Positions 6,088 through 63,434 of a DNA stretch of 64,000 nucleotides are shown here, piece after piece (within the stretch, counting starts at the first letter, position 1; every line of letters begins with the position of its first letter). The stretch spans positions 1 to 64,000 of the forward strand of contig MGVC01000020.1 in NCBI GenBank assembly GCA_001800285.1. The letters run 5' to 3'. Below the pieces are notes generated by a model. The model was not told the origin of the DNA. It made no database searches and worked only from the letters and a program-made list of their open reading frames with translations. Both the position numbers and the translations under genes were made by a program. The stretch comes from Elusimicrobia bacterium RIFOXYA2_FULL_39_19 (lineage in GTDB: Bacteria > Elusimicrobiota > Endomicrobiia > CG1-02-37-114 > XYA2-FULL-39-19).

Positions 6088-6129
6088 AATAATAGGAAAT
6101 ACGCATATTGTGCATTTCCTATTATTTTT
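6088..6129 (+). terminator. Leader hairpin plus T-tract (attenuator-like)
   Basis: AATAATAGGAAAT / ATTTCCTATTATT 13-bp stem followed by TTTTT, directly downstream of the -10. Confidence 0.7.
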
Positions 6130-6137
6130 GTATGTCA

Positions 6138-6153
6138 ATGCAGACGGTTGCGC
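6138..6153 (+). promoter_or_regulatory. Operator-like motif, site S0 (ATGCAGACGGTTGCGC)
   Basis: Matches the recurrent 16-bp motif; 8 nt after the T-tract. Confidence 0.65.
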
Positions 6154-6186
6154 ATATTAAAAGTGTCACAGTATTGTGCAAAAAAT

Positions 6187-7320
6187 ATGAAATTTAGAAA
6201 ATTTGGCAAATTAGATTGGCAGGCTTCCGTACTCGGGTTCGGCTGTATGCGTTTTCCAGTTGTTAATAACAGTGATGCAGTAGATGAAAAGGAAAGCATA
6301 CGAATGATTCGTTATGCAATTGATAACGGTGTAAACTACCTGGATTCAGCTTATGGTTATCACGAGGGTAAAAGCGAGGTGGTTTTAGGTAAGGCTTTAA
6401 AGGCCGGATACAGGCAAAAAGTCAAACTAACTACAAAAATTCCTGTTTGGGCTGTAAATACAGAAAGCGATTTTGATAAAGTTCTGGACGAACAACTAAA
6501 AAGGCTCAATGTTGACTATATAGATTTTTATCTTTTTCATTCACTTAATATAGATTATTGGAAAAAAATACAAAAATTCAATTTAATTGAAAAAGCCCAG
6601 TCTGCAATAAAAGAAGGAAAAATCAGGAATATAGGTTTTTCATCTCACGATAGTTACAAGAATATAAAAACAATAATTGATAGTTTTGATCAATGGGTTT
6701 TATGCCAGTTTCAATATAATTATTTGGATTCTAATTCAGAAAGTGTTAAATATGCAGCGTCAAAGGGGCTTGCTGTTGTTGTAATGGAACCTTTGCTTGG
6801 AGGAAAACTTTCAAATCCTCCGCAAATTATTAAAGATATTTTCGATAACTCAGGTTATAGAAAAGAACGTTCTCCTTCAGATTGGGCTTTACAATGGGTG
6901 TGGAACCAGCAGGAAATTTCTGTGGTGTTAAGCGGAATGAGCGCGATGCAGCAGGTTCAAGAAAATATTAAGTCAGCAAATATTTCCAGTCCGGGGCTTT
7001 TAAACCGCAAAGAGTTAAAAGTTCTTGAGCGTGCCAGAGCGCAGTATGAAAAATTAATTCCCATTAAATGTACAGGGTGCAATTATTGCAAACCATGCCC
7101 TCAAAAAATAAATATACCCTGGGTGTTTGAATTATATAACAAAGGTTTTATACACCAGCATTTTGAAAGTTACTCCAGGGCTTATTCTATGTTAGGAGAA
7201 GCGAAAGCTGATGCGTGTATTCAATGTGCTAAGTGTGAAAAGAAATGTCCTCAAGGGCTGCCAATAAGTAAATTTATGTCAAAGGTAAGCGGGGTTTTTA
7301 AAACATGCGCAGTGAAATAA
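6187..7320 (+). CDS. Aldo/keto reductase with C-terminal 4Fe-4S ferredoxin-like domain
   Basis: MKFRKFGKLDWQASVLGFGCMRFP; C-terminal CTGCNYCKPCP and CIQCAKCEKKCP clusters. Start 6187 preferred over 6037, which would cover the promoter and hairpin. Confidence 0.9.
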   Translation: MKFRKFGKLDWQASVLGFGCMRFPVVNNSDAVDEKESIRMIRYAIDNGVNYLDSAYGYHEGKSEVVLGKALKAGYRQKVKLTTKIPVWAVNTESDFDKVLDEQLKRLNVDYIDFYLFHSLNIDYWKKIQKFNLIEKAQSAIKEGKIRNIGFSSHDSYKNIKTIIDSFDQWVLCQFQYNYLDSNSESVKYAASKGLAVVVMEPLLGGKLSNPPQIIKDIFDNSGYRKERSPSDWALQWVWNQQEISVVLSGMSAMQQVQENIKSANISSPGLLNRKELKVLERARAQYEKLIPIKCTGCNYCKPCPQKINIPWVFELYNKGFIHQHFESYSRAYSMLGEAKADACIQCAKCEKKCPQGLPISKFMSKVSGVFKTCAVK

Positions 7321-7889
7321 ATAAGTTTTTTGTTAATTTTGCAGTAATCAGTATGTTTGTTTTATCAATAACAGTATATGCCTCGGCCGGCAACAGGTTA
7401 GCTGTAATGGATTTTTCAAAATGGGATATGCCAACCATAGTAAATGATACTGTTATACCGGTATTAGCAGAAGATTATATTGAGGGTGATCAGGGGTTAA
7501 GTTTAAAAATCACTTTTGTAGGCCGTGGTTTTTGCGGGCGTAAAAACGTTGAAAAACCCTGGTCAGATTTCAAGTATTTCAAATTTAGCGCTTATAACGC
7601 CCAAAATAAAAATCTTACGTTTTCGCTTGTAATAAAAGATAAAAACAGCATAAGCAGCAGGAAAAACATGGATACCTGGATAGTCCTGCCCTTTGTTTTG
7701 AAGCCCGGAATGAACAGAGTATCATTAAATCTGAAAAAAGCTGAACATTTTGGAGATAAGAAAAAAATAGATCTTTCTGAAATAAAACAATGGCATTTTT
7801 CTTATAAGCTTTTTCCTGAGCAGAAATGGGAAGAAACCGGCCCCGAGCAGGTTGTTATATATATAAGCGACATAAGAGTGGAAAATTGA
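7305..7889 (+). CDS. Secreted protein with CBM-like domain, unknown function
   Basis: Signal peptide; domain pattern (EGDQGLSLKITF...KPWSDFKYFKFSAYN) resembles the duplicated domain in 54512..55651. Confidence 0.7.
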   Translation: MRSEINKFFVNFAVISMFVLSITVYASAGNRLAVMDFSKWDMPTIVNDTVIPVLAEDYIEGDQGLSLKITFVGRGFCGRKNVEKPWSDFKYFKFSAYNAQNKNLTFSLVIKDKNSISSRKNMDTWIVLPFVLKPGMNRVSLNLKKAEHFGDKKKIDLSEIKQWHFSYKLFPEQKWEETGPEQVVIYISDIRVEN

Positions 7890-9333: not shown

Positions 9334-11193
9334 ATGATTAATAATTTAGGAAAAGCTGAAATAACTCCAAAAAAAGCAGTTGTCGGGACTACTAATATTT
9401 ACACTTTGGTTTATGTTGCAGGAAAAGACGGAATTAAAAAAGGCGGTAAAATCAGGGTTTTGTTTCCCGGCGGGCACAGCTGGTCAAAGCCGCAGATTTT
9501 CCAGATAGGGCATTATAACGGGTATATAACCGTACGCTGCAGTAATGGACAGGTAGTATTAAAGCCTTCCATATTTTCTACAAATGTTGATGAGTATGGC
9601 GAGAAAATTGACAACGAAAAATTTGAAGGAAAAAGATTTTCCGGAGACTGGAACGCGGTGGAAATAGAGGTGCTAAATTCTGAAATAAAAGAAGGCGATA
9701 AAGTAAAAATAGTTTACGGCGATGTGCAGGGCGGCAAAGGATTCGGCACAATCTGTTCTCATAAATATATAAAATCAAAAAAGAATCTCAGTACTTTTGT
9801 TGTTCAGATAGATAAAAACGGTTCCGGTGAATTTAAAGAAATAAATAAATTTCCGGAAGTTAAGCTTTCTGCGCAAAAAACAGAAAGTTTAGAAGTGATA
9901 GCACCTTCGGTAGTGAAGGCGGGTGAGAAATTTGATGTGCATGTTAAAGCAAGAGATATATTTTGTAATCCGACTTGCGAATATTCAGGAGTATTAAATA
10001 TTAAAGCCAGCAGTAAGGGCTTGATGCTGCCTGCAAAAGTTGTTTTTAAAAAGAATGCGTTGGGTGTTATTAAAATCAAAAATGTTTCTGCGCTTAAACC
10101 CGGTGTTTACTGGATTACTGTAACCGATAATAAAAATAAAATAAAAGGTGAAAGTTATCCGATAAAGGTAATGCAGAATAATGAAGACAGCCTTTATTGG
10201 GGTGAAATGCATCATCATACAAACGTATCGTATGATAACATTGGAAACAGAATGTATGCAACTCCGGATGAAACCTGCGGTTATGCGCGCGATATAGCCA
10301 ATCTGGATTTTATAGTGATTACAGACCATCATAATACGCACAGTGATTTGGCATTTGAATTGTCAGAAAAAGCCTGGAAAGCAACGGTTGAAACAAGCAA
10401 CAGAATGAATAAAGACGGAAAATTTGTGGTGTTTGCCGGTATAGAATACCAGTCCAGAAGAGGGCACACAAATGTTATTTATCTAAATAACAATGAGGCC
10501 TATTGTAATAATTCAATTTTAGAAGTCACTGAACTCTGGAAGTTATATAAAGGAAAAGATGTTATTACTATGCCGCACTTCCATGCTGACTGGGGCAAAG
10601 AAGAAACCTGGCAGTGGCACGATGAAGAGTTGGAACGCCTGGTAGAAGTAAGTTCCTGTCACGGCAGGTATGAGTTTTTAGGAAACCAGCCCCGCCATCC
10701 TAAACGGATGAAGAACGAATTTTATACAGTCCAGTACCAACTGGCACAAGGGAAAAAATTAGGCATCTATTGCGGCAGTGACGACCATATGGGCCAACCG
10801 GGCAACCATCATTTAACCGCTGTAATTGCGAAAGATAAAAGTAAGAAAGCGGTATTTGAAGCATTGCGAAACAGGCATTGTTACGGAGTAACCCACCACA
10901 GAATATTCCTTGATTTTAAACTAAACGGGCATATTATGGGAGATGTTATCAGCAGCGTTTCAGAGAAAACTGATGTGCGCAATATTGAAGTAGAAGTTGC
11001 GGGAAGCGGCAGAATATTAAGCATAGCCTTGATAAAGAACAACAAGGAAATACACGTGCTCTATAACCAGCCGCATTACGCGAAGTTTAGTTTTACCGAT
11101 AAAGAGAAAGAAAAAGACACTGATTATTATTATGTGCGCGTCATTCAGGAAAATAATGAAATGGCGTGGTCCAGCCCAATTTGGGTGGAATAA
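9334..11193 (+). CDS. PHP-domain/DUF3604-like metal-dependent hydrolase
   Basis: LYWGEMHHHTNVSYD, DFIVITDHHNTHSD and CGSDDHMGQPGNHH motifs; AGAGGGG RBS before ATG 9334 (ORF opens at 9277). Confidence 0.75.
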   Translation: MINNLGKAEITPKKAVVGTTNIYTLVYVAGKDGIKKGGKIRVLFPGGHSWSKPQIFQIGHYNGYITVRCSNGQVVLKPSIFSTNVDEYGEKIDNEKFEGKRFSGDWNAVEIEVLNSEIKEGDKVKIVYGDVQGGKGFGTICSHKYIKSKKNLSTFVVQIDKNGSGEFKEINKFPEVKLSAQKTESLEVIAPSVVKAGEKFDVHVKARDIFCNPTCEYSGVLNIKASSKGLMLPAKVVFKKNALGVIKIKNVSALKPGVYWITVTDNKNKIKGESYPIKVMQNNEDSLYWGEMHHHTNVSYDNIGNRMYATPDETCGYARDIANLDFIVITDHHNTHSDLAFELSEKAWKATVETSNRMNKDGKFVVFAGIEYQSRRGHTNVIYLNNNEAYCNNSILEVTELWKLYKGKDVITMPHFHADWGKEETWQWHDEELERLVEVSSCHGRYEFLGNQPRHPKRMKNEFYTVQYQLAQGKKLGIYCGSDDHMGQPGNHHLTAVIAKDKSKKAVFEALRNRHCYGVTHHRIFLDFKLNGHIMGDVISSVSEKTDVRNIEVEVAGSGRILSIALIKNNKEIHVLYNQPHYAKFSFTDKEKEKDTDYYYVRVIQENNEMAWSSPIWVE

Positions 11194-21193: not shown

Positions 21194-21223
21194 TGTAACA
21201 TTTTTACGGTTTGCACGTCTTAA
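21194..21223 (+). promoter_or_regulatory. ECF-type promoter (TGTAACATTTT...CGTCTTAA) upstream of sigma gene
   Basis: -35 TGTAAC and -10 CGTCT, 22 nt start to start; same core and spacing at 22681. Confidence 0.8.
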
Positions 21224-21238
21224 GAAGGCAACGGGGCC

Positions 21239-21811
21239 TTGATGGTACAGGAAGATTCTAAACTTTTAGAAGAATTTTTAAAGGGTGATGAACAGGCTTT
21301 TGAATCATTGGTATGTAAGTATAAAACGGTGGTTTATGGCACTATTCATTCCATTGTGGGAAATATCCAGGACGCGGAAGACGTTTCACAGGAAGTATTT
21401 TTAAATATTTACAAAACCCTGAATTCTTTCCGTGGGCAGTCTTCATTATCCAGCTGGATTTACAGGATAGCTGTTAATAAAAGCATCGATAATGTCAGGA
21501 AAAAGAAAAATAAGGCAATATCCCTTGAAACTGAGCTTGATAATGATGAAAAACTGAAATTATTGGATGTTTTATCAAGCAAAGAAGACAGCGATCTGGT
21601 GGTTTTAGAAAAAACGGAATTTCAAAAAACAGTAAGTAAAGTAATGAATTCTTTGCCGGAAAAGTTCCGGGTAATTTTAACATTAAAAGAACTGGAAGGA
21701 TTGAGCTATGATGAAATTTCAAAAATTATGAATATTTCCGTTAATAAAGTCAAAGTTTGGCTGTTCAGGGCCAGGAAAAAATTAAAAAAAGATTTAGCTT
21801 TGTCTGATTAA
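21239..21811 (+). CDS. ECF sigma factor
   Basis: Sigma70 region 2 (FLNIYKTLNSFRGQSSLSSWIYRIAVNKSIDNVRKKKN) and region 4 (LPEKFRVILTLKELEGLSYDEISKIMNISVNKVKVWLFRARKKLKK). Confidence 0.95.
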   Translation: MMVQEDSKLLEEFLKGDEQAFESLVCKYKTVVYGTIHSIVGNIQDAEDVSQEVFLNIYKTLNSFRGQSSLSSWIYRIAVNKSIDNVRKKKNKAISLETELDNDEKLKLLDVLSSKEDSDLVVLEKTEFQKTVSKVMNSLPEKFRVILTLKELEGLSYDEISKIMNISVNKVKVWLFRARKKLKKDLALSD

Positions 21812-21827
21812 AAGGGGGAAACAAGCC

Positions 21828-22295
21828 GTGGCTTGCAACGAACTATTATTGTCTTCATATATTGACAAAGAGCTGTCTCCGGTTGAAGAAAGGAAATTAA
21901 CCGGGCACTTAAAAGAATGCGCGAGCTGCAGAAAAGAGCTGGGTTGTTTATTGCAAACAAGGAAATTATTTGCATTGAAGGAAAGAAAGAATCCTGATGA
22001 GTATTTTGAAACAAGAATACTTGCCGGTATAAGAGCGAAACTGAAAGAAGAACAACAGCTTGCAGGCAGGCCGTTTTACGGGAAATTCATGCCTGTAACC
22101 ATACCCGTAGCTGTAGTTTTGGTTCTTTTTGTGTTTGGGGTGATGAATCAAAAAACAAAACAGGGGCCGGTTAATGTTCAAAGTGATATAAACAACGTGA
22201 TGAAACTCAATGTAGACAAAGTTATAGATCAAGATTTTGATAAGGAGCTTATTGATTTGTATTACAATTCGTTTGGCCAGGAGATATTGAAATGA
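21828..22295 (+). CDS. Anti-sigma factor with zinc-finger-type N-terminus
   Basis: GTG start; ACNELLLSSYIDKELSPVEERKLTGHLKECASCRKE; single TM segment. Confidence 0.85.
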   Translation: MACNELLLSSYIDKELSPVEERKLTGHLKECASCRKELGCLLQTRKLFALKERKNPDEYFETRILAGIRAKLKEEQQLAGRPFYGKFMPVTIPVAVVLVLFVFGVMNQKTKQGPVNVQSDINNVMKLNVDKVIDQDFDKELIDLYYNSFGQEILK

Positions 22296-22678
22296 AAAGC
22301 ATATGGAAAGTTCTTATAATAATAAGCTTGACAGTGAATTTGTTTGCAATCCTGTTTATTAGTTCAGAAGCAAGCAAAAACGAACCTGCAAATAGCGATA
22401 TTGAAGCCCTGAGGCAGGAAAAAAGCGGTAAAAGTATTGATAATTTCGCGAAAAACTTAGGTTTGACTGAAATGCAAAAGAAAGAAGCGGCTAAAATTAT
22501 GGAAGAAGGCTGGGGAAAGGTAAGTGAAGAAAAGCAGAAGATGAGAGACAGGGTTTATCAAATTGTGCTGGAGATGCATAAAAAAATTGCAAAATTGCTT
22601 ACACCGGAACAATTGGAAAAATTTAAAACAACTTCAAAAAAATTTGAACAAATTGTTAAAGAAAAAGAAAAAAAATAA
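22292..22678 (+). CDS. Small periplasmic Spy/CpxP-like protein
   Basis: N-terminal TM; LTEMQKKEAAKIMEEGW...MRDRVYQIVLEMHKKIAKLLTPEQLEKF; overlaps anti-sigma stop. Confidence 0.6.
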   Translation: MKSIWKVLIIISLTVNLFAILFISSEASKNEPANSDIEALRQEKSGKSIDNFAKNLGLTEMQKKEAAKIMEEGWGKVSEEKQKMRDRVYQIVLEMHKKIAKLLTPEQLEKFKTTSKKFEQIVKEKEKK

Positions 22679-22680
22679 GG

Positions 22681-22710
22681 TGTAACATTTTGGATACTCA
22701 TGCGTCTAAA
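22681..22710 (+). promoter_or_regulatory. ECF-type promoter (TGTAACATTTT...CGTCTAAA) upstream of the GH38-like operon
   Basis: Same TGTAACATTTT / CGTCTWA elements with 22-nt offset as at 21194. Confidence 0.8.
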
Positions 22711-22741
22711 CAGCAGAAGCCGATTCTGCTGTTTTTTTTTT
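22711..22741 (+). terminator. Intrinsic terminator / leader hairpin
   Basis: CAGCAGAA-gccga-TTCTGCTG followed by T10; begins near the predicted start site of the 22681 promoter. Confidence 0.9.
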
Positions 22742-22749
22742 AAGCATTC

Positions 22750-22765
22750 GCGAAGACGTTTGCGC
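22750..22765 (+). promoter_or_regulatory. Operator-like motif, site S1 (GCGAAGACGTTTGCGC)
   Basis: 16-bp recurrent motif 8 nt after the T-tract, 16 nt before ATG 22782. Confidence 0.75.
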
Positions 22766-27291: not shown

Positions 27292-28239
27292 ATGAAAAAC
27301 AATAAAAGGAATTTAGTACCCGCGATGTTGTTATTTTGTCTGATGGAATTTTCAGGTGTTGTTTATTCCGCTGGTACTACGGGAGCGGATTTCTTAAATA
27401 TTGGCGTGGGAGCGCGTCCAATAGCCATGGGAGGAGCGTACGCGGGTTTATCGGATGATATAAATGCCATGTACTGGAATCCAGCGGGATTGAATAATGT
27501 CAGCGGCAGGGAAATCAGTGGCAGTTACATCATGTGGCTGGAAGGAATCAGCAGCGGCCAGCTGGCGTTTGCCCAGAAACAGTCCAACGGGAATGTGATA
27601 GGAATCGGGGTGGACTATTTAACCAGCGGTACAATAGAACAGACAGAAATAGACACAAACAGTAGTTATGTAGCGACAGGAAAAACCTTCAGCAGTAACG
27701 ATATGATGGCAAATGTAAGTTTAGCTAGATCGATAGGCAGTGATACAGTAGGAGGGGTAAGCTTAAAGCTCATTCAGTGCAAGATAGAAAACGAATCAGC
27801 CAGCAGTTACGCGGGAGATGTAGGCATATTAACTGATTTGATAAACTATGACCTTCCTTTAATGTTAGGCATATCTGTACAGAACCTGGGTTCGGGAATA
27901 AAGTACACACAGGATACTGAAACCCTTCCTATGACTTACCGGGTTGGTTTATCGTACATATACATGGTTGCTAAATCCGAAGACAAAATAAATTTAGCTT
28001 TTGATGTAAGCAAGGCGGGAAGCAATGATATGGACCTGCATTTGGGAGCGGAATATATGATGGGCAAATCAATAGCGCTTAGAGCCGGGTATAAGAAATC
28101 CGGAGGCAGTGAAAGTTTAACCAGTTTATCCGGCGGGTTCGGATATATAGATAAAAGCGGAATAGGCCTGGATTATGCGTGGGTGCCCTATGGGGATTTA
28201 GGCGTAGCGCATAGGATTTCAATAACGAATAGATTTTAA
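27292..28239 (+). CDS. PorV/UPF0164-like outer-membrane protein
   Basis: AGTTGADFLNIGVGARPIAMGGAYAGLSDDINAMYWNPAGL; C-term DYAWVPYGDLGVAHRISITNRF. Confidence 0.9.
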   Translation: MKNNKRNLVPAMLLFCLMEFSGVVYSAGTTGADFLNIGVGARPIAMGGAYAGLSDDINAMYWNPAGLNNVSGREISGSYIMWLEGISSGQLAFAQKQSNGNVIGIGVDYLTSGTIEQTEIDTNSSYVATGKTFSSNDMMANVSLARSIGSDTVGGVSLKLIQCKIENESASSYAGDVGILTDLINYDLPLMLGISVQNLGSGIKYTQDTETLPMTYRVGLSYIYMVAKSEDKINLAFDVSKAGSNDMDLHLGAEYMMGKSIALRAGYKKSGGSESLTSLSGGFGYIDKSGIGLDYAWVPYGDLGVAHRISITNRF

Positions 28240-28253
28240 TTTGAAAATAAAAA

Positions 28254-31200
28254 ATGAAAAATAACTTCCTTTATTTTATTGCAGCAATAATATTATTCTC
28301 CGTGCCTGGATTATACGCGAAAGAATGGACTATTCTTGTATATATGAACGGGGATAATGATGTAGAACCCCTGGCTATAAAAGACATCAACGCAATGGAA
28401 AGGGGCATTAATCCAAGTTTAATGAACGTAGTTGTTCAGTTAGACCGCGCGCCCGGCTATGACAGTTCAAACGGAGATTGGCAGAATGTAAAAAGATTTG
28501 AGCTTGTGTCTGACACAAATAGCGATAATACCATAAGGTCAACCGAGATTGCGAACTTGGCGGAATTCCGGTCAGCCGATCCTGATAAACTTGCCGAGTT
28601 TGTAATTTGGGGCATGCAGAATTATCCCGCTAATAAGTATTGCGTGATAGTCTGGGGGCACGGGTATTCCTGGGTCGCATCGGTTGCAGCAGGAGCTATG
28701 AACTGGCCTCCTTACTCTCCGGTTTCAAGTTTATCTATAAAAAAAGTCCCGGGTTCGAAAAGTATTGAAGAGCTTCTCTATGAAGGGCCGGGCCTAATGG
28801 GTTTCTGCGGCCCTGATGTAACAAATCAGCCGGCTGATAATTTATACGGCCCGGAACAAATCGGTGTTTCTGACGGCGAATTAGCTTCAGCTATGCAGTC
28901 CATTAAAACACAGCTTGGAAGGAAAATTGATCTGTTAATTTTCATGAACTGCCGGATGGGCCAGGTGGAAGTGTTTGATGAGGCCTCGGAGTACAGCGAT
29001 GTTGTTGTGGGTGGCGAAGGAAGTATTCCTAATTTTGAAAATTCCGCAAGGGATAATTTGCAGTGGCTATCGGCGAATCCCACAGCTACGGCGCAACAGC
29101 TTGGGGCCTCCTGGACCGATAAATATATTTCTTATTTTGCCGCAGGGAGTGCATATTCCTGTACAGTCAACTTGAATGAGGATTATACGCAGCTTTTGGA
29201 TGCTATAAATTTGTTCGCCCAGGAATTAATTAATGCAGGAGGAAAAACCAGGGCCGAAATTATCCAGGCAAGAACCAATTGCGCTTATCTCAATGATGCT
29301 GCGGATACCGGGCTAATCTACAAAAAAGAAACAGTTGATCTATACGATTTCTGCGAAAAGATAATAGCGCAAACAGCTCTGCCGTCAGCTGTACGCAATG
29401 CGGCGCAGGGTGTAATTAATGCTTTCGGGCCGTGTGTTTTGGCAGAGGGGCATGTCAGCGTTGTCGGCACTCCAAACTATATTGTGCGCTGGCAGTCTTT
29501 ACATGGATTAGGAATTTTCTATCCAAGAACAGATTATATCAATACCATGAATGAATATGCGGGACTGCATTTCGCCCAAAACAATGCCTGGTATGCATTT
29601 ATCACAGGCGCTACCGGTGATTCGTCTCCTCCAAACCCGCCAACTAACCTAATCAGCCCAAACAGGACACAAGCAAGCATCGGCTTGAGTTGGACTGCCT
29701 CAACTCAGGCAGGTGACGGAGATTATGCAAGTTTTTATAGAGTATACCGCAATTCAATATTAATAAGCACGGCGGCCGGAACAAGTTATACTGATTCGGG
29801 ATTAGCAGCAGGCACAACATACAATTACGGGATCTATGCAATAGATGATTCAAACAATGTAAGTGTATCGTCGGCAGCAGGAAATTTTTATACTTCTACC
29901 GGCAGTTCAATCACTTACACAATCAGCGGATACGTGAAAGATAATTCCAGTACAGCGATAAGCGGTACAGTGGTAAATTTAACCGGAGCGTTAACAGCCA
30001 ACACCGGCACAAACGCTACCGGGTATTATCAGTTTACAAATTTATCCGGCGGAGGGAATTATACGGTAACACCCGCTTCAGCGGGCTGGACAATTTCCCC
30101 AACAAATAAAGTATATACTTCGCTTTCCGCTAATCAAAGTAACCAGAATTATTTTGGGTCAATAACGGCAGTAACCACCTGCACTATCAGCGGATATGTA
30201 AAGAATAACAGCAGCGCGGCGATTTCAGCAGTGACCGTGTATATAAACGGCAGTTCTCATTCCAGCGTGAGCACCAATGCATCAGGATTTTATCAGTTTA
30301 GCGGATTGGCTCTTGGCGGCAGCTACACTGTCACGCCAGCCAAAACAGGATATATAATCAGCCCTGTAAAAAAAGTTTATTCGTTGTTATCGGCAAACCA
30401 GGCCAATCAAAACTTTTTTGGCGCTGTAATTGCAGTAACCACTTACACTATCAGCGGGTATGTAAAGGACGCAAGCAGTATAGCGATAAACGGTATAGCG
30501 GTAAATTTAACCGGCAGTTTAACGGATAATACAAGAATAAACGCTTCCGGGTATTATCAGTTTACCGGGTTGGCGGCCGGGAATTATACAATAACTCCGT
30601 CGTCAACCGGCTGGGTTATATCCCCGGCGAATAAAGTATATACTTCACTTTCTGCTAATCAAGGTAATCAGAACTTTTTTGGAACCCGCGTTTGTAAAAT
30701 CAGCGGGTATGCGCTGGATGATTTAAGCCTGGCAATATCCGCAGTGACAATGAATTTGACAGGAGCAGCTACACGGGCAATAACTACTGATGGCGACGGA
30801 TACTATGAATTTACCGGTCTGGCCTACGGCACATATCAGTTAACACCGTCAAAAACGAACTGGACCTTCAATCCGGCAAATGTATCTTATTCTTCGCTTG
30901 ATTCGGATCAAGACCAGAACTTCCTTGGAGTGACAACTGAATTAACTTATTCAATAAGTGGTACAGTTCGTGACGGGGCCAACGCGCCGTTACAGGGAGT
31001 AACAATAAGCCTGTCAGGAACAGCGGCAGCGTCTGCTAGAAGCAACAGTTCCGGAGTATACAGTTTTTATAATTTAAGCTCAGGCACTTATACAATAACG
31101 CCATTTTTAGAAAATGCTGTATTCAGTCCTGTAAATAAAATATACAGTTCACTGAATACAAATCAGCTAAACCAAAACTTTGCCGGCATAGTTACGCAGG

Positions 31201-32099
31201 CCTATTCAATCAGCGGGTATGTTACTAATGATTCAGGGTCCGGTTTGTCGGGCCTGCAATTAAATTTAATGGGTGTTTCTATTTCATCAGTCGTAACGGA
31301 TAATTCCGGATATTATATATTTTCAGGTTTAACAGCAGGCAATTACACGATTACACCCGTCGCCGCGGAGTACACGTTTGACCCGGTAGAATTACTATTT
31401 AGTTCATTGGTTTCAAACCTCTCCGGCCAAAGCTTTACCGGGACAGCGTTTGTAAGCAGTTTGACGCCCGATGCAATAACGGACTTAAAAGCGCAACCCG
31501 GGATTAACGCGGGAGAAATAAAGCTAAGCTGGACAGCCCCGACGATTAATAATGTGCCAGGTTACGCGGACAGTTATGATTTGAGATATTTATTTATTAC
31601 TGTGACAGATGTTGACTGGAATTTGGCGATTCCATATTTCGTGCCTCTTGCGCCGAAAATAAGCGGAGCAAAAGAAATTTTAACAATTACAGGATTAAAT
31701 CCGGAAAAAACATACTATTTTGCGATAAAAGCTATAAAAGGAAGTAATAGGTCTTTAATTGTAAATACTGTCAGCGCAAAGCCCAGGGAAATTTTTTCTA
31801 CAGTGTTGGATAATATAAAGGTATACCCAAATCCGTTTAAGCCCAATGATAACAAACCTGAGACCGGCGATTGGAACACGGGAATATTCTTTTACGGTTT
31901 GACAAATAATTCAACGATAAATATATACACGGTGTCGGGTGAACTTGTAATCATGCTTGAAGAAACGGATAATGACGGGAAATACCAGTGGGATGTAAAG
32001 AATAAAGAGAAAGAAAAACTTTCCAGCGGGAAGTATATTTATAGAATTACTGATTCTTCCGGAGCAAAGATAACGGGGAAAATAGGGGTGGTGAGATAA
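28254..32099 (+). CDS. Clostripain-like (C11) cysteine peptidase with FN3, tandem carboxypeptidase-regulatory-like repeats and YPNPFKPN C-terminal module
   Basis: KEWTILVYMNGDNDVEPLAIKDINAMERG; VIVWGHGYSW (His) and LLIFMNCRMGQVEV (Cys); C-term KVYPNPFKPNDNKPETG. Confidence 0.85.
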   Translation: MKNNFLYFIAAIILFSVPGLYAKEWTILVYMNGDNDVEPLAIKDINAMERGINPSLMNVVVQLDRAPGYDSSNGDWQNVKRFELVSDTNSDNTIRSTEIANLAEFRSADPDKLAEFVIWGMQNYPANKYCVIVWGHGYSWVASVAAGAMNWPPYSPVSSLSIKKVPGSKSIEELLYEGPGLMGFCGPDVTNQPADNLYGPEQIGVSDGELASAMQSIKTQLGRKIDLLIFMNCRMGQVEVFDEASEYSDVVVGGEGSIPNFENSARDNLQWLSANPTATAQQLGASWTDKYISYFAAGSAYSCTVNLNEDYTQLLDAINLFAQELINAGGKTRAEIIQARTNCAYLNDAADTGLIYKKETVDLYDFCEKIIAQTALPSAVRNAAQGVINAFGPCVLAEGHVSVVGTPNYIVRWQSLHGLGIFYPRTDYINTMNEYAGLHFAQNNAWYAFITGATGDSSPPNPPTNLISPNRTQASIGLSWTASTQAGDGDYASFYRVYRNSILISTAAGTSYTDSGLAAGTTYNYGIYAIDDSNNVSVSSAAGNFYTSTGSSITYTISGYVKDNSSTAISGTVVNLTGALTANTGTNATGYYQFTNLSGGGNYTVTPASAGWTISPTNKVYTSLSANQSNQNYFGSITAVTTCTISGYVKNNSSAAISAVTVYINGSSHSSVSTNASGFYQFSGLALGGSYTVTPAKTGYIISPVKKVYSLLSANQANQNFFGAVIAVTTYTISGYVKDASSIAINGIAVNLTGSLTDNTRINASGYYQFTGLAAGNYTITPSSTGWVISPANKVYTSLSANQGNQNFFGTRVCKISGYALDDLSLAISAVTMNLTGAATRAITTDGDGYYEFTGLAYGTYQLTPSKTNWTFNPANVSYSSLDSDQDQNFLGVTTELTYSISGTVRDGANAPLQGVTISLSGTAAASARSNSSGVYSFYNLSSGTYTITPFLENAVFSPVNKIYSSLNTNQLNQNFAGIVTQAYSISGYVTNDSGSGLSGLQLNLMGVSISSVVTDNSGYYIFSGLTAGNYTITPVAAEYTFDPVELLFSSLVSNLSGQSFTGTAFVSSLTPDAITDLKAQPGINAGEIKLSWTAPTINNVPGYADSYDLRYLFITVTDVDWNLAIPYFVPLAPKISGAKEILTITGLNPEKTYYFAIKAIKGSNRSLIVNTVSAKPREIFSTVLDNIKVYPNPFKPNDNKPETGDWNTGIFFYGLTNNSTINIYTVSGELVIMLEETDNDGKYQWDVKNKEKEKLSSGKYIYRITDSSGAKITGKIGVVR
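29905..31440 (+). repeat. In-gene tandem repeats encoding about 80-90 aa SGYVKD...YTITP...NQNFFG modules (about 6 copies)
   Basis: Recurrent YTISGYVKD / GYYQFTGL / YTITPS / NKVYTSLSANQxNQNFFG in the translation. Confidence 0.85.
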
Positions 32100-37675: not shown

Positions 37676-37726
37676 TGTATTGAAAGGACGTCTGGCAGCA
37701 TGTGGGCGTTTTATTTTTAGGTATAT

Positions 37727-37742
37727 GCGAAAACGTCTGCGC
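37727..37742 (-). promoter_or_regulatory. Operator-like motif, site S2 (GCGAAAACGTCTGCGC on +; core AGACGTTT on -)
   Basis: 8 nt after TTTTATTTTT; 12 nt before ATG 37755. Confidence 0.75.
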
Positions 37743-37754
37743 AAGTGAAATAAT

Positions 37755-46509: not shown

Positions 46510-46628
46510 GAGAAGACCCGAAATGGTAAACCCTGGGAAACCAGGGGGCGCAAAACCAATGGGCCCTGAGCGAAGTCCTGAGTGAAGTCAAAGGATGAGT
46601 TGGATGGGCAGCCGGTTGCCGATAATGC
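46510..46628 (+). ncRNA. Cyclic di-GMP-I (GEMM-I)-like riboswitch aptamer
   Basis: GGTAAACC-CTGGGAAACCAG-GGGGCGCAAAACC...GGGCC...GGGCAGCCGGTTGCCGA: GAAA-capped P2, GACGCAAAGCC-like junction and GGTAGCCGGGTTACCGA-like 3' segment of GEMM-I. Confidence 0.8.
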
Positions 46629-46665
46629 AGACGCGAAAAATAAGATTTAGCCGATTAATATTATT

Positions 46666-46720
46666 ACGAGCTATTGAAGGTATCTCTATAAAAGATAATT
46701 TCAGTAACTCGTTTTTTTTT
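46666..46720 (+). terminator. Riboswitch expression-platform terminator hairpin
   Basis: ACGAG-c-TATTGAA ... TTCAGTA-a-CTCGT followed by T9, between aptamer and start codon. Confidence 0.8.
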
Positions 46721-46728
46721 GAATAAAC

Positions 46729-46744
46729 ATGAAGACGTTTGCAC
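46729..46744 (+). promoter_or_regulatory. Operator-like motif, site S3 (ATGAAGACGTTTGCAC)
   Basis: 8 nt after T-tract; 29 nt before ATG 46774. Confidence 0.7.
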
Positions 46745-46773
46745 AGCGATATTTGGTTTAAAAAGGAATAAGA

Positions 46774-55666: not shown

Positions 55667-55697
55667 CCTGTGTTTTTTCCGACGGAAAAAACACAGG
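55667..55697. terminator. Long perfect hairpin, possible terminator
   Basis: CCTGTGTTTTTTCC-gac-GGAAAAAACACAGG just after stop at 55651; T-rich tail only on the minus strand. Confidence 0.6.
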
Positions 55698-55756: not shown

Positions 55757-55824
55757 TAAGTATCAGTTTTTTGTTCTTTAGTTTTTGAAAGATTTTTGAG
55801 GAATTTATTTTTTTTGTAAAATTC

Positions 55825-55840
55825 ATGAAGACGTTTGCGC
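55825..55840 (+). promoter_or_regulatory. Operator-like motif, site S4 (ATGAAGACGTTTGCGC)
   Basis: 9 nt after T8 tract; 37 nt before ATG 55878. Confidence 0.7.
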
Positions 55841-55877
55841 AGAACTATAAAAAAGACATCTGCACTAAATTTATAAA

Positions 55878-63238: not shown

Positions 63239-63279
63239 GAGAAGCGAGTAGGTAATTTGGGCGTTTTCTCGTTTTTTTT
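63239..63279 (+). terminator. Leader hairpin plus T8 (attenuator-like)
   Basis: GAGAA...TTCTC(G) imperfect stem then TTTTTTTT, between promoter and motif S5. Confidence 0.5.
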
Positions 63280-63287
63280 GCATAGTT

Positions 63288-63303
63288 GCGAAAACGTCTG
63301 CAC
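63288..63303 (-). promoter_or_regulatory. Operator-like motif, site S5 (GCGAAAACGTCTGCAC on +; core AGACGTTT on -)
   Basis: 8 nt after T8 tract. Confidence 0.7.
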
Positions 63304-63434
63304 AAGCTAAAATATGCATTATAATGGCTTGTTTCTGAAAATCAGCACTAAGACATAGTATTTAAACTAAGTATTAGCATATAAAGTAATTCTGCACTTT
63401 CCGGAAAAAGGGCACTGATGCAGGGTAAGCTAAA

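Follow-up and report, generated by a model that had tools for sequence, protein, structure and literature searches.

The window, the 64,000-nucleotide stretch of DNA analysed here (contig C20 of a 3.09-Mb genome), very probably carries two promoters of the ECF sigma factor encoded at 21239, one at 21194 (P1) and one at 22681 (P2), the second of which would be gated by a putative LacI-type repressor. Positions are those of the window and features lie on the + strand unless stated otherwise. P1 (21194-21223, TGTAACATTTTTACGGTTTGCACGTCTTAA) lies 45 bp upstream of the sigma gene and consists of the -35 element TGTAACATTTT (21194-21204) and the -10 element CGTCTTAA (21216-21223). P2 (22681-22710, TGTAACATTTTGGATACTCATGCGTCTAAA) lies 101 bp upstream of an open reading frame for a GH38-like protein, with the same TGTAACATTTT at 22681-22691 and CGTCTAAA at 22703-22710. 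Both share the arrangement TGTAACATTTT-N11-CGTCT, which is absent from the rest of the window, and their TGTAAC...CGTC agrees with ECF (group IV) promoters, which have AAC at -35 and CGT at -10 (PMC8103513). A first-pass annotation of the window had placed the two sites at these positions, with an identical 11-nt -35 region and an offset of 22 nt from the start of each site to CGTC, and the sequence bears this out in full. It had also described the promoter as copied, which is correct in the functional sense and incorrect as DNA duplication. The spacers and flanks of P1 and P2 are unrelated, which gives no sign of a recent duplication and indicates that their likeness comes from constraint or independent origin.

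The sigma gene (21239-21811) starts at TTG 21239 or ATG 21242 and encodes a protein of 190 aa with the Sigma70_r2 and Sigma70_r4_2 domains alone, the domain composition of an ECF factor (TIGR02937, 118.9 bits, cut-off 42.9). Sixteen nucleotides further on, a second gene (21828-22295) encodes the putative cognate anti-sigma factor, a predicted membrane protein with one hydrophobic stretch and a zf-HC2 domain (Pfam PF13490, E 2.2e-8) whose HxxxCxxC motif reads HLKECASC. The third gene (22292-22678) encodes a Spy/CpxP/Metal_resist-like periplasmic protein with two LTxxQ-type motifs and sub-threshold Pfam hits. With PF13801 (Metal_resist, cut-off 29.2) it scores 17.1 bits and its counterpart in the related genome G003 28.4 bits. 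A Spy-like gene occupies the same position at the sigma loci of relatives, and the product is a putative sensor or chaperone.

The first gene of the operon behind P2 (22782-27263) encodes a secreted protein that resembles GH38 alpha-mannosidases, contains fn3 repeats and has a sorting tail of T9SS type A. It is followed by genes for a PorV/PorQ-family outer-membrane protein (27292-28239; NF033709, 172.8 bits, cut-off 90) and for a C11 (clostripain-family) peptidase that contains repeats and has a tail of the T9SS type (28254-32099). The C-terminal T9SS sorting domain scores 28.7 and 24.3 bits with TIGR04183 (cut-off 23). A search for the SprA translocon with PF14349 gave no match in the genome, nor in any control genome. 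The operon occurs in none of the 294 other phylum genomes sampled, so P2 has no direct comparative footprint.

The initial motif was derived from the window alone. The pattern TGTAACN{15,18}CGTCTWA matches the window twice, at P1 and P2, and gives no match in 100 dinucleotide shuffles. A search of the whole genome, which the first-pass annotation had proposed, returned three exact matches: P1, P2 and a doubtful third at C55:43402. The last was not counted as a target because TTTT does not directly follow TGTAACA and the next plausible gene is more than 200 nt away. Allowing two mismatches swamped the search with noise (81 matches versus 215 in the reversed control), and only exact or footprint-based matches were used in the pattern searches for the regulon.

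A scoring matrix was built from 20 sites on other contigs and in other genomes, with the window left out. It ranks P2 (26.4 bits) and P1 (20.4 bits) first and second in the window; the next site scores 8.7. Across 30 simulated 64-kb sequences the matrix maximum averages 12.8 and reaches 21.9 at most. Two points count against the two-promoter reading: that one simulated site of 30 exceeds the score of P1, and P1 ends in CTTAA where the consensus has CTAA. As predicted sites, P2 is secure by score alone and P1 by score, position and orthology together.

A chance or relic match at 22681, with the GH38 operon transcribed by read-through or from an unseen promoter, would sit well with an operon that has no ortholog to footprint. 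It is nonetheless highly improbable, as the site is the window's best match to an independently built matrix, is intergenic and points in the right direction; moreover, a strong terminator opposes read-through and no good sigma-70 promoter is nearby. Control of the GH38 operon through P2, as first proposed from the window, is thus a well-supported prediction.

Homologs of the sigma factor were gathered from 60 relatives and 295 phylum genomes. In a tree of 30 sigmas, the window sigma and 18 others form a cluster (support 96/90). The 19 members of this cluster without exception, and two sigmas outside it (G007 and G038), have the footprint GTAAC[ACT]TTTT-N11/12-[GA]TCTAA 36-134 bp upstream of the matched start of the protein; the deviations are CTTAA in the window and GCAAC in G038. 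It is also present at all eleven homologs that the phylum search added, which brings the total to 32 of 32 including the window. The 31 related sigma genes outside the window belong to the phylum Elusimicrobiota, mostly Endomicrobia, and include a paralog on contig C30 of the same genome. The footprint is upstream of none of the nine other, less related ECF genes in the tree, a modest control since the motif was refined on these homolog data. Autoregulation of the sigma through P1, which the first-pass annotation had suggested, is strongly supported by this comparative pattern.

A strict search of 96 genomes of the class found six matches, all at sigma loci of the window-sigma group, compared with two for the reversed pattern. 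A looser search of 20 genomes found matches in 18; most matches precede genes for sigma factors, TolC-like proteins or Spy-like proteins, and the controls gave few. We conclude that the motif shared by P1 and P2 defines a real promoter class, as judged from these genome comparisons. A search of named genomes for relatives of the sigma returned distant ECF factors alone. In five genomes of family f4 (L060, L061, L063, L064 and L067), about 10-15 nt separate the ECF -10 element from the sigma ATG, and the sigma mRNA of these genomes may be leaderless or nearly so.

The motif also precedes genes for TolC-like outer-membrane proteins in G001, G002, G018, G023, G025, G056 and G093, and genes for Spy-like proteins in relatives. 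In relatives, TolC and Spy were assigned by resemblance of their sequences, and Pfam tests were added for G003. Both the sigma gene and a divergent TolC gene have the promoter in G001 and G002, and in G003 a single run encodes sigma, anti-sigma, Spy-like protein, TolC, MFP and MacB. The ancestral job of the sigma was probably envelope stress and efflux.

The genome of the window encodes a second sigma of the group on C30, 53% identical to the window sigma, with a CTTTT/12-nt-spacer promoter. The same variant fronts an efflux operon on C54 that encodes Spy-like protein, TolC, MFP and MacB (28.1 bits). The window pair is of the variant ATTTT/11-nt spacer/CGTCT, and C30 and C54 have CTTTT/12-nt spacer/GGTCTAA or AGTCTAA; the promoter of each sigma gene is thus of the same kind as those of the sigma's presumed targets. 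The window sigma has the look of a paralog that was reassigned to the secreted-glycanase operon, and the likely history is one of an envelope-stress/efflux sigma whose second copy was wired to that operon.

Both sites could also be genuine ECF promoters recognised by the C30 paralog, either alone or alongside the window sigma, which would place the operon in a shared envelope-stress regulon and not in a private one. The identity of the two sigmas, the near identity of their sigma-4 recognition helices (NISVNKVKVW versus NISVNKLKVW) and the GTAAC-TTTT and GTCT common to both promoter variants fit such sharing. However, the variants differ consistently, and the sigma-2 stretch that reads the -10 element differs more than the sigma-4 helix. 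We consider sharing rather unlikely and prefer the window sigma as the reader of both promoters.

Two further sites in the same genome are weaker. A second ECF sigma gene adjoins the C30 sigma and has a related promoter, TTTAACCTTTT...GTATCTAA (16.8 bits). The sites of this locus (L152, G000:C30) precede the sigma genes at 9408-10013 and 7231-7773, both on the - strand, and the related promoter suggests a sigma cascade on C30. On C81 (L026 2694, G000:C81), a TolC-like gene has the motif variant TGTAACATATTGG...AGTCTGAT just upstream (16.9 bits) and is a possible further member of the regulon.

P2 is followed by a module that comprises a hairpin and T-tract (22708-22741; 11-bp hairpin 22708-22734, T10 22732-22741) and a predicted LacI/PurR-type operator (22750-22765). 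The operator GCGAAGACGTTTGCGC is an even near-palindrome with a CG centre and is symmetric at 12 of 16 positions. Its GAA starts 10 nt past the T-tract, and 42 nt separate the end of the P2 -10 element from the GAAGACG core. Even palindromes with a central CG are typical of LacI-family sites (PMC4052901), and one copy of the operator lies just upstream of a LacI-family gene on C29, while a second directly follows such a gene on C34. The genome has eight copies, six in the window (6140, 22752, 37729, 46731, 55827 and 63290) and two elsewhere (G000:C29:30408 and C34:15850). In all eight, the distance from the end of a T-run to the operator core is 10 nt (11 in one copy); at a random position, the chance of TTTTT ending exactly at that distance is 0.75%.

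The other five modules of the window have sigma-70-like promoters that score 10.5-11.5 of 12.5. These are TTGAAA-N17-TATAAT for the module at 6124-6155, TTGACA-N17-TATATA for those at 37710-37744 (before a sulfatase gene) and 63272-63305, and TTGACT-N17-TATACT for that at 55802-55842, which has a weak hairpin and the N11 spacing. In the fifth (46515-46746, before a GH123-like gene), a c-di-GMP-I riboswitch (46515-46623) sits between the sigma-70-like promoter and a terminator hairpin, T-tract and operator (46731), so that several regulatory inputs fall within 230 bp of one leader. The best sigma-70-like score near the 22752 module is 8, and the ECF promoter stands in its place. The module is thus used with two promoter types, as the first-pass annotation had noted, five of the six window copies being sigma-70-like and one ECF; that P2's module lacks the sigma-70-like promoter seen at the other five also speaks for control of the operon by the ECF sigma. 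On the - strand at 55667-55697, a perfect inverted repeat of 14 bp precedes a T-run and is probably a terminator.

The hairpin directly before the T-run is strong at 6140, 22752 and 46731, weak at 37729 and 63290, and hardly present at 55827, C29 and C34. Because its strength varies among copies, the invariant part of the module is the T-run and the operator. Among 295 phylum genomes, matches to the T-tract/operator module outside the window's own genome are scattered and not far above the control rate, which indicates that the module is not a conserved feature of the phylum.

The hairpin and T-tract at 22708-22741 may simply be the terminator of the sigma operon, in which an embedded P2 starts a transcript that is unable to fold the complete terminator and so runs on. 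The sigma operon ends at 22678, and the full hairpin is strong (-14.6 kcal/mol, z -3.7). The expected start of P2 (about 22713-22716, predicted) falls within the 5' arm, and transcription from 22713 would omit about half of the stem, leaving a 69-nt leader with z -1.05. With the start in this arm, the full hairpin can terminate the sigma operon and the P2 transcript carries part of the hairpin. Yet the same order of T-tract, N10 and operator lies behind sigma-70-like promoters at five other sites in the window, and the hairpin of the 6140 module is likewise near the expected start, which makes a role beyond termination probable for the element. We put a plain terminator at a little under an even chance; this reading is about the module alone and agrees with two promoters of the window sigma.

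We infer the following circuit for recognition of the promoters by the sigma, its signal and its repression. At rest, the membrane zinc-finger anti-sigma factor (21828) would hold the sigma factor, and the Spy/CpxP-like product of the third gene would probably tune its release. An envelope or surface signal would free the sigma, which would activate its own operon from P1, a positive feedback, and from P2 the operon for the secreted GH38/PorV/C11 proteins; one signal would thus probably turn on both operons. P2 would fire into the hairpin and T-tract, with the LacI-type operator at a fixed distance behind. Given that the operator lies downstream of P2, the operon probably needs an active sigma together with a repressor that is absent or induced.

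We tentatively raise a further, rather improbable reading, in which T-tract, N10 and operator form a repressor-dependent attenuator, one device that would serve sigma-70, riboswitch and ECF promoters. Once bound downstream of the start, a LacI-type protein would stall RNA polymerase with its active site on the T-tract, and the weak hybrid, helped by the nascent hairpin where present, would release the transcript. If so, the ECF operon would require both sigma release and repressor removal, elongation being blocked.

A sigma that controls itself and a neighbouring operon follows a well-known principle. The ECF promoters of SigW (and SigX/SigM) of Bacillus subtilis are autoregulatory, as predicted for P1, and the SigW -35 consensus TGAAACxTTT (PMC6713349) matches the layout of TGTAACATTTT, T-run included. 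The NCBIfam SigW model is the best match of the window sigma, yet below the equivalog cut-offs (148.4 versus 209 and 134.6 versus 243.1 bits). Unlike SigW, the window system has CGTCT(A) at -10, and its predicted regulon, set in an envelope of the Gram-negative type, consists of genes for efflux and for secreted glycanases. The metal-responsive CnrYXH system of Cupriavidus metallidurans likewise combines a sigma, a membrane anti-sigma and a periplasmic protein, and relatives of the window sigma are similarly predicted to control efflux genes. In contrast to CnrYXH, the window anti-sigma has a zinc-finger domain, the third protein is weakly similar to Metal_resist/LTxxQ models, below cut-off, and the predicted target is a secreted-glycanase operon.

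ECF-type circuits drive genes for carbohydrate-active enzymes in Bacteroides and Clostridium (PMC10766802). Unlike in those systems, no SusC/D-like or FecR-type partner was seen beside the window sigma gene, and both the promoter and the order of the genes come from a sigma group of envelope stress and efflux. The even palindrome, the central CG and the copies beside LacI-family genes resemble local regulons of the LacI family, whereas the window operators are placed beyond the expected start, at a set distance from a T-tract. In the literature searched, we found no study of ECF factors in Endomicrobium or Elusimicrobia and no description of this wiring with an added repressor site. The circuit is of an ordinary kind, newly mapped, and its second layer is unusual.

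The motif provides a testable promoter code for the class Endomicrobia, as it alone predicts the regulon of an ECF sigma group conserved in about 30 genomes. In the organism studied here, a sigma of the envelope-stress type has apparently been duplicated, redirected to a secreted-glycanase operon and joined by a LacI-type operator whose arrangement is unusually rigid.
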